A stretch of 38,466 bases of DNA from a virus: positions 1-38,466 of the IMG/VR virus record IMGVR_UViG_3300045971_000434; one strand, written 5' to 3'. Below the pieces are notes generated by a model. It made no database searches. It was not told where the DNA came from and saw only the letters and a list, made by a program, of their open reading frames with translations. A program made the position numbers and the translations under genes. Positions 646-38,466 of the stretch are shown piece by piece (position 1 is the stretch's first letter; each line of letters opens with the position of its first letter).

Positions 646-1167
646 TTATTGTTTATTTCTTAATCTTTTAAGTTCTTCAAACCCTCTCTCTAATATCCCA
701 CGCTTGTCGTTCAATAATCGCATTTCATCACTTGTCTTCTTTCTCTCCCTATCTAACATCTTCCTGTCTTCTGCTATTTGAATACGTTCAGATTTAGTTT
801 TATTTAAAGTTTCATTAACTTTAATGAGATGTTCCTTTATGTCCTTATCTATCTCATTTATGCTAATATTAAAGCCCTCAAAGAGAGTAGCAATTTCAGT
901 AGACATGAGCTTGATCTCTTTGGCATAAGCCTGTAACTCATTAGAAAAATTAATGAGTTCCGTGTGATTTTGGGTTGTCTCTTCTAAAGCATTGCGACTC
1001 TCTTTGAGGACTGTAATTATCCTATCCTCTACATCTTTTTCTCGTAAAACGAGATATTGTTCTGTTTCCTCTTTTAGTTTATTTAATTCCGAATGCGCAG
1101 TAGACAAATTCATCTGCATTGTGGACAGTTCTTTTGCCGTATTGAATTTTTCTTGGTCTAATTGCAT
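646..1167 (-). CDS. Coiled-coil protein of the virion gene block
   Basis: A 173-residue, strongly charged, almost wholly helical protein. Heptad patterns run nearly end to end (for example TAHSELNKLKEETEQYL and HLIKVNETLNKTKSERIQ), and the C-terminus is very basic (RGFEELKRLRNKQ). There is no membrane segment. It is placed downstream of capsid and decoration genes and upstream of the small repeat proteins and tail fibre. A trimeric connector, fibre shaft or assembly chaperone role fits a coiled coil at this position, but this is inference. The gene is preceded by a gap with strong stem-loops at 1188-1244. Confidence 0.7.
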   Translation of the reverse strand: MQLDQEKFNTAKELSTMQMNLSTAHSELNKLKEETEQYLVLREKDVEDRIITVLKESRNALEETTQNHTELINFSNELQAYAKEIKLMSTEIATLFEGFNISINEIDKDIKEHLIKVNETLNKTKSERIQIAEDRKMLDRERKKTSDEMRLLNDKRGILERGFEELKRLRNKQ

Positions 1168-2692: not shown

Positions 2693-3442
2693 CTACGCGG
2701 ATACAGTAATATTACTAATCCACGTATTTGTCCCTGTACAAACATTGAATATCTGGGCATTCTTACCTGATGGAACTGCTACAGTACCTGTAAGTGTATT
2801 GCCAGAAGCTGCGGTAATCGTCACTGTCTGATTACCAACATTTGCATATACTGTCCAAAATCCATCACCAGTTGTTACACCAGTAATAGCAGATGACATA
2901 TTTGTTCCTGTTGGAACGGTGAATGTACCTGCGCCAGTTACTGAGGTATGGGTGATAAGACCTCCGAGCAGTTGTGCTGCTGTTGGAGCAGCATTTTGTG
3001 TTGCTACGGTTGTATTTACAACTCCACCAAATACTGTATATGCTGTTGTTCTACCGATTGATAAACCTCCAGTAGATACGCCACCAATAACCATCACTCC
3101 TGTACCCTTTGCATCAATAGAAAGTCCAGCTGCTGCACCAGACGAAATCGAAGCAAGTGCTACTGTACCTGTAGCGGTAGCACCCTTAACTTTAAGACCA
3201 GCTGCTTGTGATGCAGTAGATGAGTCAACTACAAATGCTGGATTTGTTGCACCTGCAAGACCTACTGCAAATGCCGTAGCTGATGCTGATGTAACTGTTC
3301 CTAGACCTGTGACTGTAGAACCTCCAACGGTTGTTGCTGCTGGAAGATCTACTGTTGGAGCTCCAGTAAAATCAACTGCTACATCAGTATTTAAACCATT
3401 AAATCTAACTACTGGTACGTAATCCTCTAAATTTCCTGCCAT
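2693..3442 (-). CDS. Head fibre or decoration-like protein
   Basis: A 249-residue, low-charge protein of repeating Thr/Val/Gly/Ala beta-strand units (TVGGSTVTGLGTVTS, TATGTVALASISSGAA, GVMVIGGVSTGGLSIGRTTAYTVFGG). The C-terminal beta domain contains GDGFWTVYANVGNQTVTITAASGNT and QIFNVCTGTNTWISNITVSA. That C-terminal pattern is common in phage head fibres and tail spikes, where it ends a trimeric beta shaft. It is the gene immediately after the major capsid protein, so a capsid-attached fibre is the best inference. No enzyme motif is seen. Confidence 0.6.
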   Translation of the reverse strand: MAGNLEDYVPVVRFNGLNTDVAVDFTGAPTVDLPAATTVGGSTVTGLGTVTSASATAFAVGLAGATNPAFVVDSSTASQAAGLKVKGATATGTVALASISSGAAAGLSIDAKGTGVMVIGGVSTGGLSIGRTTAYTVFGGVVNTTVATQNAAPTAAQLLGGLITHTSVTGAGTFTVPTGTNMSSAITGVTTGDGFWTVYANVGNQTVTITAASGNTLTGTVAVPSGKNAQIFNVCTGTNTWISNITVSA

Positions 3443-8011: not shown

Positions 8012-9605
8012 ATGCTTCTTGTGATGGCCATCCATTGTTTGTTGCCATAATTTCTCCGATGTCCCCCACTAAATTGTCTCGTCCTATGAGCATCTTTGAA
8101 TCAGTCCCTCGTAGTGCTTCGGGCATGTATGAACCCACTCCTGTACCTCCAAGAGTTGCGAGATAATAATATAGCGTTGCAAAAACGTAGTGATCCTCTC
8201 CAGTTGTACTATCCCATTGGAAACTTTCAATACCGCGATTATCCGTCACCTTAATGCGCCTCAATGTCTCCCAATGTTTAAGATAATTCTTAATTTCACT
8301 ATCAGAAGATAGGCCAAAGAGCATCTTTGCCCTCATAATTTGGTCAATAAGTTGGTCCAAAATACGATTTCGATTGCTATAGACGATGCCTTCGCGGTCT
8401 CCTTCACCCCACCAGACAATTGTTTTTGGATTATTTTTGTTCTCTTGGAAGAACGACATCAGTGCATTACGGTAGTTTTCAACGTAATACTTCGACATTG
8501 TATTATCCGGCATGGCATCAATCACCAATTTCGGCTTATACATCTTCATCATATCGTCCAAATCAGCCCATTTTGTAAACCTACCAATCTTTGTTGGACC
8601 TAATTCAGAACCTAAAACATAGTGTTTTATGTTTCCAACATCCACTCCAAGGAACCATTTACCTGTTTCAAGGTTACGCGGTGTCCAACTATCAAGGATT
8701 GTAGACCTACCAACACGAATATCTCCCGGTGAGTAAGGTTCACCAAGTACGAAGTTATAGAAATACTCCTGATCACCTTCACTGTCCTTAATGATTTCCG
8801 CCGCGTCAATCCATGGAGCCATCATAAGCGAAATATGGTAGCCCGAAATGCTATTTCCCGGTGCTTGAGCTACCCATCTTCCCATTCTACGGTCAGCCTT
8901 ATAGAGTTTTCCCTGACATTCCTTACACTGGTAGAACTTCTTCTCCATGTTAATGCTGTCTGGCCATGTCAACGTCTGCTCATGCTTACATAAATGGCAT
9001 GTCACCATCCATTCCTTCTTATCGGACTTGTTCCATGCGATGTCAATCGCGTCCTTTTCCGTAGTCGGGTTAGAAAAAAGCCAACGTCCTTTATACTTAC
9101 TCGCTTTAGTACGTGACTTCATCGTATCAATAACGCTTTGGTCCGAACGTGATGCCTCATCGTGAATCAAAAGGTCAGCAGTGGTCATAATGGCTGATGT
9201 CTTTGACACTGTACCCTTAAAGAACATGAACCTACCATCAAACTCCTTGCGTTCGATGTTGTCCGTGTTCATTCCACCAAATACCTTTGGATTTGCCGCA
9301 ATAATCTTGTTTGTCTTTGATGAAACGAACTCTTGGACATCACTATCAGTCGGAAATGTATAGAGAATGTTCCATCCAAACTTTAGGATGGCAAAAAGTG
9401 CCTTAAAGTTAAAGGACACTGAACCTCCAATCTGCGCACACTTCTTAATAACGATTTCCTGCGACCAATCCGTCAAAATATCAAGCAAAAATGGGCGATC
9501 GTTGAAGTCCAACATCTCGCCCTTCTCTGAAACCAGTCCATTCTCGAATATCCACGCGAGAATAGACAGGTCTTCACTCTTAACTTTTTGCTCTTTTTCC
9601 TCCAT
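8010..9605 (-). CDS. Terminase large subunit (GpA-like)
   Basis: A 531-residue DNA-packaging motor with ATPase and nuclease domains. The N-terminal half shows the adenine/Walker A region as KKCAQIGGSVSFN (residues about 54-66), a deviant A motif of the QxGxS type seen in lambda GpA-like terminases. Walker B is LLIHDE (145-150). A zinc ribbon C203-x2-C206...C227-x2-C230 sits between the domains, also a GpA-family trait. The C-terminal nuclease begins at FLGVDVGN (about 318-325), with a second acidic site in LVIDAMPD. It lies between the upstream packaging genes and the portal. The start at 9605 overlaps the previous gene by 26 bases. Confidence 0.92.
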   Translation of the reverse strand: MEEKEQKVKSEDLSILAWIFENGLVSEKGEMLDFNDRPFLLDILTDWSQEIVIKKCAQIGGSVSFNFKALFAILKFGWNILYTFPTDSDVQEFVSSKTNKIIAANPKVFGGMNTDNIERKEFDGRFMFFKGTVSKTSAIMTTADLLIHDEASRSDQSVIDTMKSRTKASKYKGRWLFSNPTTEKDAIDIAWNKSDKKEWMVTCHLCKHEQTLTWPDSINMEKKFYQCKECQGKLYKADRRMGRWVAQAPGNSISGYHISLMMAPWIDAAEIIKDSEGDQEYFYNFVLGEPYSPGDIRVGRSTILDSWTPRNLETGKWFLGVDVGNIKHYVLGSELGPTKIGRFTKWADLDDMMKMYKPKLVIDAMPDNTMSKYYVENYRNALMSFFQENKNNPKTIVWWGEGDREGIVYSNRNRILDQLIDQIMRAKMLFGLSSDSEIKNYLKHWETLRRIKVTDNRGIESFQWDSTTGEDHYVFATLYYYLATLGGTGVGSYMPEALRGTDSKMLIGRDNLVGDIGEIMATNNGWPSQEA

Positions 9606-10025: not shown

Positions 10026-10292
10026 TTAGTTGATTACTCCAAGGATCATCTCCTCACTAATCACAATCAAGACTTCACCATCAACGAGCACTTCGTCATA
10101 TCCATAAGGTGAGAATGCTACTTTGTTTCCTACCTTTACTTCCTTTGTGCTTGGTCCACAAGAAAGTACCGTTGCGTACACAGTGTTATTTGTAGCTACC
10201 TTTGGCTTCTGTACCTCACCTTCAACTACTTGCTCCTCCACTACCACTTCTACATTCTGACGCACAAGCACACGATTATTTGTTGGCTGCAT
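10026..10292 (-). CDS. GroES-like co-chaperonin
   Basis: An 88-residue protein with the Cpn10 layout: an N-terminal strand in MQPTNNRVLVRQ, a mobile-loop-like insert (residues about 16-36, VVVEEQVVEGEVQKPKVA), then VYATVLSCGPSTKEVKVGNKVAFSPYGYDEVLVDGE and the ending VLIVISEEMILGVIN. That ending aligns naturally with the GroES barrel and its final strand. GroES caps the GroEL chamber, and known phage versions (T4 gp31) replace the host cap to fold the coat protein. Here it lies among head-assembly genes, so folding of the capsid protein by host GroEL is the likely role. The mobile loop is not the usual GGIVL type, so partner specificity is uncertain. Confidence 0.8.
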   Translation of the reverse strand: MQPTNNRVLVRQNVEVVVEEQVVEGEVQKPKVATNNTVYATVLSCGPSTKEVKVGNKVAFSPYGYDEVLVDGEVLIVISEEMILGVIN

Positions 10293-11089: not shown

Positions 11090-11254
11090 TTATTCAGCGA
11101 CAGGTTGCTCCAATTCATCAGGCTTTGGGACCACTACTGGTCTTGCCATGATCCTTCCACCATCAATATATGGCTCTGCACTTAGGGCAAACTTATATTG
11201 AGTGAGCAATTCTTTTAATGCTACGTTGAATGCAGCGATGTTATTTTCATCCAT
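11090..11254 (-). CDS. Small hypothetical protein, first gene of the late operon
   Basis: A 54-residue protein: MDENNIAAFNVALKELLTQYKF, then ALSAEPYIDGGRIMARPVVVPKPDELEQPV. An N-terminal helix is followed by a Pro-rich tail. It ends 12 bases before the putative small terminase and is the first gene after the leftward promoter at 11284-11313. Small helix-plus-tail proteins occur beside small terminases, but I do not recognise it. Confidence 0.65.
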   Translation of the reverse strand: MDENNIAAFNVALKELLTQYKFALSAEPYIDGGRIMARPVVVPKPDELEQPVAE

Positions 11255-11283
11255 GCGATGAGGGCTTATTGGTTAATGCTATT

Positions 11284-11313
11284 AGTATACCTTAAATGGG
11301 GTAATTTTCCCAA
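11284..11313 (-). promoter_or_regulatory. Leftward sigma70-type promoter for the late operon
   Basis: On the minus strand TTGGGA (11313-11308) and TATACT (11289-11284) are 18 bases apart, placing a transcription start about 22 bases before the ATG at 11254. The AGTTATCCACAG box lies only six bases upstream of the -35 element, where an activator or a DnaA-like protein could act. This is a visual match to the consensus only. Confidence 0.5.
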
Positions 11314-11318
11314 CTTTC

Positions 11319-11330
11319 CTGTGGATAACT
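11319..11330 (-). promoter_or_regulatory. AGTTATCCACAG box, copy 2 (DnaA-box-like)
   Basis: Identical to the boxes at 8000-8011 and 19125-19136 and in the same orientation. It contains a perfect DnaA-box core, sits at the late-operon edge of the large noncoding region, and lies just upstream of the putative late promoter. It could serve replication initiation, transcription control or both. Confidence 0.65.
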
Positions 11331-11692
11331 CAAAATCGATGAAGATTCGGGGGTAGGGGGGAACTTAAATAATACAAGAATCTCCCACCTATCTATGGTA
11401 TACCCCCCACCTAGAAAAAAGACCCACACCCTATCACAATACTCAATGCACAAAGGATATAGTCTATAAAAAACGCGCGCGAGTGGAACGCTTGAAGGTT
11501 AGTGTTTAAGGCGCAAAAAGGCACATGCTCTATGACGCTCTACAAGGCGCAAGGCTGATAGTTATATGCTTAGTGACATGATTGCTTATGTTTTGAGATT
11601 AAAAGGTGTGAGAGACGAACCACAAGCCATACAGAGCATGTCTAGCAACGCCACACAATCAACACTATATATGCTGTCCCTTTCTTCCCCTT

Positions 11693-11714
11693 CATTCAAA
11701 TAACCATTTGAATG
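11693..11714. promoter_or_regulatory. Perfect inverted repeat in the control region
   Basis: CATTCAAAT (11693-11701) and ATTTGAATG (11706-11714) are perfect inverted copies around AACC. It may be a protein-binding operator or hairpin. It lies between the C-rich stretch and the AT-rich tract. Confidence 0.5.
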
Positions 11715-11800
11715 ACTTTGCTTGATCTCCCCATGTGCAACCCAACCAACAACAAAAAGGTGCTATCTTGACACTTCCATAAACAATGTTACAAAGCAAA

Positions 11801-11912
11801 ATAATATTATACCACAAATTTATACTTTGTATATGTATCCCTTTTACCCTATATACATATATATTATAATATATATATATATATTATTTAATAATTTTAA
11901 TATATAACTATC
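11801..11912. other. AT-rich tract, possible DNA unwinding element
   Basis: The tract is dominated by alternating TA (about 11848-11890, repeated ATATAT) followed by TATTTAATAATTTTAATATA. No coding sequence is supported here. Such a tract next to a DnaA box is where strand opening would occur in an origin. Confidence 0.5.
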
Positions 11913-11963
11913 TAGAAACAGGGTATGCGCTCGCCGTAGCGTGGCTCAACCACAACGCCACTA

Positions 11964-11999
11964 TTGACACACCATCGGAAAATGTGTTACTATCAGATA
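11964..11999 (+). promoter_or_regulatory. Facing promoter arm, rightward
   Basis: TTGACA at 11964-11969 is followed after 18 bases by TACTAT (11988-11993), preceded by an extended -10 TG. It would transcribe the early operon beginning at 12194. The 36-base block recurs in inverted orientation at 12055-12090: 22 bases match with one difference, then an eight-base unmatched spacer of equal length, then the TTGACA again. Confidence 0.55.
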
Positions 12000-12054
12000 C
12001 TATCCCTTGACTATCTTATACACTTATAATACACTTATCACATAGATAACATGT

Positions 12055-12090
12055 TATCTGATAGCAACACATTTTCATGCACCGTGTCAA
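12055..12090 (-). promoter_or_regulatory. Facing promoter arm, leftward
   Basis: This is the inverted copy of 11964-11999. On the minus strand it reads TTGACA (12090-12085), an eight-base variable spacer, then the conserved 22-base block containing TGCTAT in the -10 position. It points toward the rightward arm, so any transcripts would run through each other's promoter. The arms are separated by 55 bases. Confidence 0.5.
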
Positions 12091-12193
12091 ATTCTCACGT
12101 CTGCGACAAAATGTCAAGTACCTCAGAAAACACGCGATCTTCACCGTGCATAGCGTCCACTATTAGAGACGCGATAGCGGTAACAACTAACAT

Positions 12194-12565
12194 ATGGAAA
12201 CATACAAAACAGAGTCAAGGCTCATTGTCAAAAAAATACTTGAAACAAAGGAAAATGGTGACACACAATATATTAAGCTATCAGTAACAGCCCATAAGAC
12301 TGATGCATACCGCAAGGCGCGCATCGTCCTATCAATTAACACCGTTGAGGGCATGAAGCGCGATGGATATACAATGGAAAATTACATGCCTATTGATGCA
12401 TATGTTGCCACTATCTGTAATATGCCACGCTACAACGTTAAGACGGTTACAAAGGTATTTGCACTCGTGGAAGCACAGGCAACGCGCCTAGTCTCAATGT
12501 ATGAGGCTAGCAATATTATAGAGCTTAACGGCATTATTACGGGCATTAAGATTGACATAGCATAG
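12194..12565 (+). CDS. First early gene, hypothetical
   Basis: A 123-residue protein with mixed alpha/beta character and no membrane segment: METYKTESRLIVKKILETK, then QYIKLSVTAHKTDAYRKARIVLSIN, a central helix and ending GIITGIKIDIA. It is the first gene rightward of the facing promoters, with a leader of about 190 bases if the promoter is correct. First-expressed phage genes often encode host take-over or regulatory proteins, but nothing in the sequence identifies an activity. No SD precedes the ATG (context AACATATGG). Confidence 0.7.
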   Translation: METYKTESRLIVKKILETKENGDTQYIKLSVTAHKTDAYRKARIVLSINTVEGMKRDGYTMENYMPIDAYVATICNMPRYNVKTVTKVFALVEAQATRLVSMYEASNIIELNGIITGIKIDIA

Positions 12566-15821: not shown

Positions 15822-16172
15822 ATGGCACGAAAGAAAGTATCAGTAAAAAAGTTTATGGTATCAGTTAATGAGATGCAGTCTATTGCACTTGATAATCTTA
15901 TGCAGGAGGATATGCAGGATAATGTATCGCAATATATTGGATTCTTGATTGCGGAAGTTTCAAAGCAGCGTGAAAGCGGACGCTCCAAGCGTTCCGTTGG
16001 CCGTCCTAAGAATGAGAAGGAGGAAGAAGTATATTATCCAGCTCCATATAATAAAGATGCGCCACCGTACACACATGACGATTTGGAAGCGTATTATACT
16101 GCGCGTAAGGAAAAGGTTCCGGCCGGACTTATTCCACTCACAAAGGAGGAGTTGAAGAAGTGGGATATGTAG
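15822..16172 (+). CDS. Ribbon-helix-helix DNA-binding protein
   Basis: A 116-residue protein. Residues about 8-48 fit an RHH (Arc/MetJ-like) fold: the strand KKFMVSVNEMQ, helix A (IALDNLMQED) and helix B (NVSQYIGFLIAEVSKQ). A basic AT-hook-like segment SKRSVGRPKNEK follows at about 55-67. The C-terminal half is Pro/Tyr-rich, then helical (THDDLEAYYTARKEK). RHH proteins bind operators as dimers, so this is a candidate phage regulator; its targets may be the repeats in 11964-12090, which is inference. It is the last gene before a bidirectional terminator. Confidence 0.65.
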   Translation: MARKKVSVKKFMVSVNEMQSIALDNLMQEDMQDNVSQYIGFLIAEVSKQRESGRSKRSVGRPKNEKEEEVYYPAPYNKDAPPYTHDDLEAYYTARKEKVPAGLIPLTKEELKKWDM

Positions 16173-19174: not shown

Positions 19175-19336
19175 ATGGCAAGACCAAACAAAGAACAATT
19201 AGTAGTCATCCAAAAGCGTAACAAAGAGCTTCTTACAATGGTCAAAAAGGGCTATCCATCTGACTATATCTGCTCATTCTTCAACCTTTCAAAAGGCCGA
19301 GTCTCACAGATAATCAAGAAGAATAAATCTACCTAG
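19175..19336 (+). CDS. Small HTH DNA-binding protein
   Basis: A 53-residue protein: MARPNKEQLVVIQKRNKELL, then TMVKKGYPSDYICSFFNLSK and GRVSQIIKKNKST. The second half is a helix-turn-helix (helix YPSDYICSFF, turn NLSK, recognition helix GRVSQIIKK), of the minimal type seen in sigma region 4 or Trp-repressor-like proteins. It is the first rightward gene after the divergent promoters and directly precedes the strong RNA hairpin and the SSB gene, so it is a likely transcription regulator of this junction. Confidence 0.7.
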   Translation: MARPNKEQLVVIQKRNKELLTMVKKGYPSDYICSFFNLSKGRVSQIIKKNKST

Positions 19337-37201: not shown

Positions 37202-38326
37202 TTATCCTATCTTATAACACCAGAAATTAGTCATAGTGTTTGCACTTGTATTTGATGCACTATTCGTATATCCAAGGAGCTCAATGTAATCATTAAGTGC
37301 AAATTGGTATACCCCACTTACTCCTGCACGACCATTTGTTGAACCTGGTGCTCCTCCAACATTTCCTGTAATAAATGTTGTTCCATTTAATCTTATTTTG
37401 AGATTAACACTTTGTGATGTAGCTGCAATTTCAACAGCTCCCCCAAAGTTATAATAACCAGCAGTTGTAATAGTAATACGAGTATTATTGGTTACATTAT
37501 CGTGCATTGTTGAAGTATCAAATGATTCAGTCTGAAATGTTACTGCCCCATAAGTTGGGTCTGTTGGTAAACTAAACACTGCATTTTGGAATACTCTACA
37601 TCCAATAAATGAACCAGAAGCAGAGGCTTGACTTACCCAGTCTGTACCATTCGAAGTTAGCACATTTCCTGACATTCCTGGTGCTGCGTGTGGTACATTG
37701 TGTCCATCTGAAATAGCCTTAGCTGTTACAAACCCAACGTTGTCTGTAAGAGCATCAAGCGTTGCCCCCGTAATAAGAGCGTTAGCCGTTGCCCCAGTAG
37801 CTATACCTGCCAACTTCGTATCAAGTGTTGTTGTATATGAAGCTGTTGTATTAGTTAGAACTGTTGCAAGGGGTTGCTTTCCATTTAACTGTGTTTGAAT
37901 TGCTGAGGTAACTTCCTTTACATAGGAAATTTCAGTGAGAGAAGGATATGTTGCTACTGCTAAAGTTCCTTGTGCGGTAGCAGAAGTCCAGTAAGAAAGC
38001 TCGTTAGTTGTACCTGACCCCGTGACCGTACCTGCACCCTTTGTATTCAATTGTGTTTGAATTGCTGAGGTAACTCCCTTTACATAGGAAATTTCAGTGA
38101 GGGAAGGATATGTTGCTACAGTCAAAGAGCCAAGAGTTGATGCTCCTGTCCAGTATGTTATTTCATTTATAGTACCTGAGCCACTAATCGTTCCACCTCC
38201 GGGCAAATCAACTAAAAGCCTATGTGTTACTGGATCAGCCCATAAAACTACAGGTGTAAATCCATCAACATCAGATACGGCAAGTAGTGTAGGAACCCTA
38301 TTTTCATCTCGTGAAGCATTAGACAT
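37202..38326 (-). CDS. Tail fibre with repeats and C1q-like tip
   Basis: A 374-residue protein. The N-terminal DEN-VPT-DG-ADP module is shared with the gene at 53-325. It is followed by two 54-residue repeats (GSGTINEITYWTGASTLGSL, ATYPSLTEISYVKGVTSAIQ and close variants), a helical/collagen-like link, and a C-terminal beta domain (residues about 240-374, GAVTFQTESFDTSTMHDNVT, GYYNFGGAVEIAATSQSVNL, NDYIELLGYTNSASNTSANT). The C-terminal pattern fits a C1q/TNF-like trimeric tip, as found in receptor-binding proteins of several phages. It probably recognises the host surface. Its start lies 2 bases from the gene at 53-325 on the circle. Confidence 0.75.
   Translation of the reverse strand: MSNASRDENRVPTLLAVSDVDGFTPVVLWADPVTHRLLVDLPGGGTISGSGTINEITYWTGASTLGSLTVATYPSLTEISYVKGVTSAIQTQLNTKGAGTVTGSGTTNELSYWTSATAQGTLAVATYPSLTEISYVKEVTSAIQTQLNGKQPLATVLTNTTASYTTTLDTKLAGIATGATANALITGATLDALTDNVGFVTAKAISDGHNVPHAAPGMSGNVLTSNGTDWVSQASASGSFIGCRVFQNAVFSLPTDPTYGAVTFQTESFDTSTMHDNVTNNTRITITTAGYYNFGGAVEIAATSQSVNLKIRLNGTTFITGNVGGAPGSTNGRAGVSGVYQFALNDYIELLGYTNSASNTSANTMTNFWCYKIG
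37890..38119 (-). repeat. 68-base direct repeat in the fibre gene
   Basis: Positions 37890-37957 and 38052-38119 match over 68 bases with two differences, offset 162 bases, or 54 codons. They encode the two fibre repeat units, and could expand or contract in frame by recombination. Confidence 0.85.
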
Positions 38327-38466
38327 ATTATAGACTGTTGATTAATAATTTATTTGTAATTGCATCTGCATATATAGGAATAGGGGTCGCTCCATCTGCT
38401 GAAGATACCGCCATAAATGCAACTTTTCTATTTTCATCTCGTATATCAACGGTAATTGTATCTCCA
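38276..38466. repeat. Terminal direct repeat, right copy
   Basis: This is the second copy of positions 1-191, with G at 38398 in place of A at 123. It includes the fibre start and the C-terminal half of the small repeat protein. Confidence 0.95.
38328..38466 (-). CDS. Small repeat protein, C-terminal fragment (duplicate)
   Basis: This is the C-terminal half of the protein encoded at 53-325, cut off by the window edge. It differs by one residue (Ala for Val in SSVDGATP) because of the single mismatch between terminal copies. Confidence 0.9.
   Translation of the reverse strand, partial: GDTITVDIRDENRKVAFMAVSSADGATPIPIYADAITNKLLINSL

Follow-up and report, generated by a model that had tools for sequence, protein, structure and literature searches.

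A conserved early phage promoter and its mirrored arm as a possible dyad control site

Operator pairs may bracket tandem promoters, as the gal operators of E. coli do. P2-like phages carry face-to-face promoters 40-60 bases apart, and in phage 186 seven direct repeats with a spacing of 10-11 bases lie between the promoters and are bound by Apl, according to the accessible sections of PMC7498355. For phage 186, PMC7708051 reports no significant interference of pE on pR.

Here, we describe a related arrangement in a virus record of 38,466 bases, which we analysed as a whole and refer to as the window. Late-side genes (terminase, portal, capsid and others) run leftward and reach up to 11254, and early genes run rightward from 12194. 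The gap 11254-12194 harbours two mirrored promoter-like arms (Table 1).

As in the P2/186 switch, as far as the accessible sections describe it, an early promoter faces a promoter-like site about 54 bases away, and repeats occur at 10-11 base spacing, in the window as five units from 11988. The window differs in that the opposing -10 element is damaged (TGCTAT) and in that its leftward side has no repressor gene, since the first gene (11090-11254) is followed by late genes. Furthermore, its promoter cores are mirror copies of each other, a feature that the accessible sections of PMC7498355 do not mention for 186. The 66 ORFs scanned with PHROGs (E 0.01-0.1) contained neither integrase nor repressor families, and the data thus give no support to a P2/186-type lysogeny switch; the locus may operate like a portion of such a region, though we do not class it as a member. 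With gal-type operator pairs the window shares two like sites that flank a start region, here approximately seven helical turns apart, whereas one of its sites lies over the -10 element, the sites are inverted and the repressor is only putative.

The reading we prefer, with a rough probability of 0.4, combines both arms: the left one would be the early promoter, the right one a mirrored recognition site, and a regulator would bind both blocks.

Geometry of the inverted repeat

A sequence-only reading of the window had described TTGACA, eight free bases and a 22-base block, repeated inversely with equal spacing and a single difference within the block. Both arms were located as described, and the blocks agree in 21 of 22 bases. 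The outer match comprises seven bases (TTGACAC) and not six, which refines the arm to the form 7 + N7 + 22: TTGACAC-N7-GAAAATGTGTTACTATCAGATA, recurring inverted with 28 of 36 bases equal. TTGACA begins at 11964, and the TGTCAA of the mirrored arm ends at 12090. The eight differences consist of a contiguous run of seven (11971-11977) and of the pair 11989 (A) and 12065 (G, minus strand).

The inverted-repeat score of 19 is the highest in the 38.5 kb record. Among 200 Markov-1 copies made from the complete window the maximum was 16, and among 2,000 shuffled copies of 11931-12193 it was 12. For the 18-base core (at most 3 mismatches), the window has two occurrences where 0.08 would be expected. 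A repeat so far beyond chance speaks for a dyad site.

Table 1. Features in and around the mirrored arms and candidate regulator gene
Feature	Position	Strand	Remark
Leftward gene nearest the gap	11090-11254	-	first gene downstream of either leftward promoter; gene-like codon usage
Candidate late-gene leftward promoter	11806-11833	-	TATACA-16-TATAAT, TG extension
AT-rich stretch	11840-11910		90% AT; upstream of the early promoter; position conserved in relatives
Left arm, conserved early rightward promoter	11964-11999	+	rank 1 of 76,872 with the relatives-only matrix; leave-one-out
Spacer stretch of 7 bases	11971-11977 (partner 12077-12083)		wholly different between the arms (arm comparison)
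22-base block, copy 1 (GAAAATGTGTTACTATCAGATA)	11978-11999	+	overlaps -10 and start region of the left-arm promoter
Array of five units at 10-11 base spacing (TACTATC... / TACACTTAT...)	11988-12040	+	lies in the window's densest TATC/GATA cluster
Weak second promoter-like site	12007-12035	+	TTGACT-17-TACACT; 43 bases after the first promoter
Perfect 14-base palindrome GATAACATGTTATC	12045-12058		adjoins the right block
Right arm, mirrored promoter core	12055-12090	-	TTGACA and TGTGT kept; -10 TGCTAT with G at -11 (12065)
22-base block, copy 2, inverted	12055-12076	-	21 of 22 bases equal to copy 1
First early gene	12194-12565	+	123 aa; no relative found
Ribbon-helix-helix (RHH) protein, candidate regulator	15822-16172	+	predicted fold

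The mirror match is absent beyond the arms and within the 7-base spacer, and the equal parts thus look selectively kept. Seven of the eight differences fall into this one stretch, for which P is about 3e-5 under random placement. Both observations bear on the view that the right arm is a functionless remnant of mutation, left when a template switch copied the promoter core inversely. This would fit the absence of the arm from the relatives examined, the lack of a third copy in the window and a leader that is about 100 bases longer than in the relatives L003 and L026 (230 versus 125-129 bases). Such a local inverted duplication could yield equal arms without any function, which counts against a dyad site, and one multi-base event could imitate the clustered differences. 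But with unmirrored flanks and clustered differences an old neutral copy is not expected to keep 28 of 29 bases in two blocks, and we regard the remnant as unlikely. A transposon-like element was set aside, as the left arm is a promoter conserved in relatives and no duplication can be seen at the flanks.

The early promoter and its surroundings

The left arm consists of the -35 element TTGACA (11964-11969), an 18-base spacer ending in TGT and the -10 element TACTAT (11988-11993), with a TG extension before -10 and a predicted transcription start at about 12000. Promoter sites were picked by eye ahead of the leave-one-out analysis, and the matrices excluded the window; they comprised six relatives first, then five after dropping L032. 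With six relatives, the left arm ranks first among all 76,872 positions (21.95 versus 11.76 for the runner-up), and with five it is still first (19.5 versus 13.3 for the next position). After removal of the -35 columns it ranks 3rd (six relatives) and 11th (five) of about 76,900; the fit therefore does not stem from TTGACA alone, yet it is not unique without the -35 element. When only the 25 upstream bases went into the matrix, the left arm was not singled out (rank 41,046). Leave-one-out retrieved the chosen site in six of seven sequences, L032 being the failure. The promoter of the group can be written as TTGACA, about 12 free bases and TTTTGTGT-TAT at 18-base spacing, and the left arm has all of these elements. 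These sequence comparisons give good support to the left arm as an early rightward promoter shared across the family, and its top rank under a matrix free of the window speaks for the dyad site.

The five relatives L003, L005, L015, L018 and L026, all of the same terminase group, have the early promoter and the upstream AT-rich stretch in common with the window; unlike the window, none of them has a mirrored promoter arm. The 60-base stretch with the highest AT content in the whole locus is found 117-121 bases ahead of the promoter in L003, L005 and L015. AT-rich stretches are also found nearby in L018 (-119) and L026 (-146), and the most AT-rich stretch of the window lies at -115. The word TTATNCACA, which we take to be the E. 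coli DnaA-box consensus, is located at the start point, 32-33 bases after the -35 start, in four of the five relatives (not in L026). In the window, the DnaA-box-like word is degenerate, with only TTATACACT present and displaced to +52. AT-rich stretch, promoter and DnaA-box-like word are thereby mapped as a conserved early-promoter module of this phage group, an arrangement that resembles an early promoter coupled to a replication origin.

An origin could also involve the repeat itself: the arms and the TTATACAC-type repeats that lie between them would be initiator sites beside the AT-rich stretch, and the early promoter would serve as activator of the origin. The regular position of TTATNCACA in the relatives agrees with this, as do the placement of the AT-rich bases in three of the five and in the window, and a GC skew that changes sign at the arms region. 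But the skew tracks gene direction too, the box of the window is degenerate and has moved, the mirrored arm lies outside the conserved module, and no initiator gene was identified in the window. Both the origin module and the promoter's role within it appear rather improbable to us.

Between and across the arms, TATC/GATA words form the densest cluster of the window (8 words in 90 bases, four of them inside the arms). Phased units were found in none of 300 shuffles (unit 6), none of 300 (unit 7) and 2 of 300 (unit 8). Cluster and phasing are in favour of a dyad site, although the array shares bases with the left block and the -10 element and is therefore not an independent observation.

Sites similar to the weak second promoter-like site occur 43-52 bases downstream of the early promoter in three relatives, with P = 0.18 for the window alone and 0.0005 over five sequences together. 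Over these five sequences, a second promoter at this distance is suggestive. For the window it was set aside, given its own P and the best site of L003, which is located elsewhere.

The ORF 12194-12565 has a codon-usage score of +0.428, and structure prediction gave no usable model for its protein (pLDDT 34). ORF 12051-12287, which begins at the right arm, was rejected as coding because of its non-coding codon usage (-0.126).

The role of the mirrored arm

The only difference within the block affects the -11 A, i.e., the second base of the -10 element (TACTAT to TGCTAT). In sigma-70 promoters, the -11 A of -10 is the most important base for DNA opening. Its change to G makes an opposing promoter of equal strength unlikely. 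With the family matrix, the right arm takes rank 62 with a score of 4.6 versus 19.5 for the left arm, drops to rank 7,220 without the -35 columns and does not qualify as a promoter of the group. The earlier proposal that the arms are two opposed promoters thus holds for the left arm, which would fire rightward and takes matrix rank 1, while the right arm (TGCTAT, rank 62) is doubtful as its leftward equal.

A transcription interference that tunes early expression is conceivable nevertheless, in which the right arm would start leftward transcripts at about 12054 that run into the early promoter. The arm retains TTGACA, the 18-base spacing and the TGTGT extension; the spacer contains the sole stretch that has changed freely, as expected under promoter constraint; and about 54 bases separate the predicted starts, a distance inside the 40-60 base range of P2-like phages given in the accessible sections of PMC7498355. 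Apart from the G in its -10 element and its low ranks, a leftward transcript would reach no regulator gene, just the late genes from 11254, and these have their own candidate promoter at 11833-11806. We consider facing promoters unlikely. Still less likely is a decoy promoter, where polymerase would be captured by the perfect -35 element and TGTGT while the G at -11 blocks melting; the same low estimate applies to the idea that a polymerase stalled there, facing the early promoter, would be a self-made roadblock that delays early transcription.

The arms could also pair as an RNA hairpin in a read-through transcript and control expression at that level. The folding score of either strand is far lower than that of shuffled sequences (z -3.96 and -3.45), and a 32-base inverted repeat of L015 lies fully within the early leader. 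An Rfam search gave no match, and the transcript of the conserved promoter begins only where the left arm reaches its inner end and would thus lack this arm. We consider a hairpin highly improbable.

We return to the dyad arrangement, under which a control site specific to this lineage is the most likely role of the right arm. The mirrored -35 bases and the -10/start block would be kept for recognition and not as a second equal promoter. The equal part of the arms extends six bases (CAGATA) beyond -10, where the relatives differ; this is more than a promoter needs and favours a recognition site. The facing blocks, 77 bases from centre to centre, would bracket the start region with its helically phased TATC/GATA array. 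A putative regulator on both blocks could cover the -10 region and in this way shut or tune early transcription, and contact between the regulator-bound sites might add to this control. The data are consistent with a dyad operator; binding of a protein, repression and cooperation of the two sites are what we infer from the layout of the sequence. It is weakened by the fact that the block occurs only at these two places, with no further operator at other promoters of the genome, and that the pair is present in none of the relatives examined, which makes an evolutionary test of binding impossible. If the mirrored arm is functional, a phage can make a second control site from its own early promoter. 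The arms offer a defined test of operator versus decoy promoter versus interference.

Candidate regulators, relatives and further repeats

The RHH protein is only a candidate regulator of the arms. Its model (pLDDT 74) has a strand at residues 11-15 and helices at 17-29 and 35-54; the fold is defined by a strand-helix-helix order over about 45 residues. The best structural matches are NikR (Z 5.8), TacA2, ParD and MazE9, all ribbon-helix-helix or related DNA-binding proteins; Foldseek with the model returned no match at E 0.001. The only relatives found are in L003 and L026, phages without the 22-base block, which argues against the RHH protein as block binder. The HTH protein 19175-19336 (53 residues), with weak profile matches only, is a further candidate; its gene has no additional copy of the block in its vicinity.

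Viral contigs supplied the relatives, by their terminase (58 loci, later the best 80 of 193 loci) and via a small-terminase-like protein (30 further loci). Where the divergent region is retained, its early side carries a TTGACA followed by sequence similar to that of the left arm. The search of relatives for the 22-base block, as suggested by the sequence-only reading, found none that carries it. The exact block had no match in viral contigs, and within the window there is no third copy, with the next best matches at chance level. No inverted repeat like that of the window was found in 1.2 Mb of scanned loci, and no phage or plasmid record matched the pair. The looser pair CTATCAGATA-N40-70-TATCTGATAG gave two matches in viral contigs, which were dismissed as chance because both lie inside coding genes of unrelated phages. 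By sequence, the mirrored right arm is specific to the window record and absent from the relatives examined. Among the sequences examined, the phage group is represented in metagenome records and one MAG contig only. This contig (L085, 55% terminase identity) belongs to a MAG binned as Candidatus Scalindua, which is too little for naming a host.

Several relatives have long inverted repeats of their own. Like the window, L015 carries one ahead of its first early gene, i.e., the 32-base repeat (2963-2994 / 3044-3075) in the early leader just before that gene; unlike the arms of the window, it has no sequence relation to them and is situated entirely downstream of the promoter. Each of its arms contains TTATCCAC-like and CTATCA words. 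In more distant phages, long inverted repeats are located near promoter-like sequence in L083 (1506-1583 / 1693-1762) and L116 (414-496), likewise in L084. Those of L083 and L116 are possibly a recurring habit of the group. A 69-base inverted repeat of L006 (8209-8277 / 8389-8457) is located at the contig end and is perhaps an assembly artefact.

Enrichment of the word TACTATCA was seen in 7 of the 16 divergent regions analysed, the 16 being taken from 22 prepared regions after near-copies (L009, L011, L014, L016, L023 and L024) had been left out. In L010, L012, L015, L018 and L021, leftward promoters share a type that has TACTATCA at a fixed place between -35 and -10, and L026 carries the type rightward. 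Leave-one-out retrieved it in five of six sequences (L008 fails), and it is probably the late promoter of the group. A link between the arms and these leftward promoters was rejected, as the arms do not fit in the matrix test: the best score in the divergent region of the window is 3.1, versus 9.6-21.4 in the self-retrieving relatives (five of six).

Inside the coding gene 646-1167, the window has a 27-base inverted repeat with a 96-base loop (868-894 / 991-1017, within 859-1023, minus strand). In an alignment of eight sequences, which excluded L027 and L034, where the repeat does not pair, pairing was kept despite sequence change in 92.1% of cells versus 86.2% in shuffled alignments, and 14 cells were changed on both sides versus 4.2 in shuffles. 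The arms encode conserved residues, and protein constraint or shared ancestry may be the cause of the pairing.

A GroES-like co-chaperonin gene is located at 10029-10292 (minus strand). Near both record ends, an identical direct repeat of 122 bases is present (1-122 and 38276-38397); it carries the start of gene 37202-38326, and the sequences differ beyond it. It may reflect a circular or terminally redundant genome with variation, or a repeated tail-fibre module. Finally, TTATCCACA occurs five times in the window (8009, 11328, 19134, and on the minus strand 25550 and 23799). Four of the five copies lie between genes, where 0.04 are expected and four were reached in none of 500 shuffles; the word may be a DnaA box or a piece of a phage control signal.
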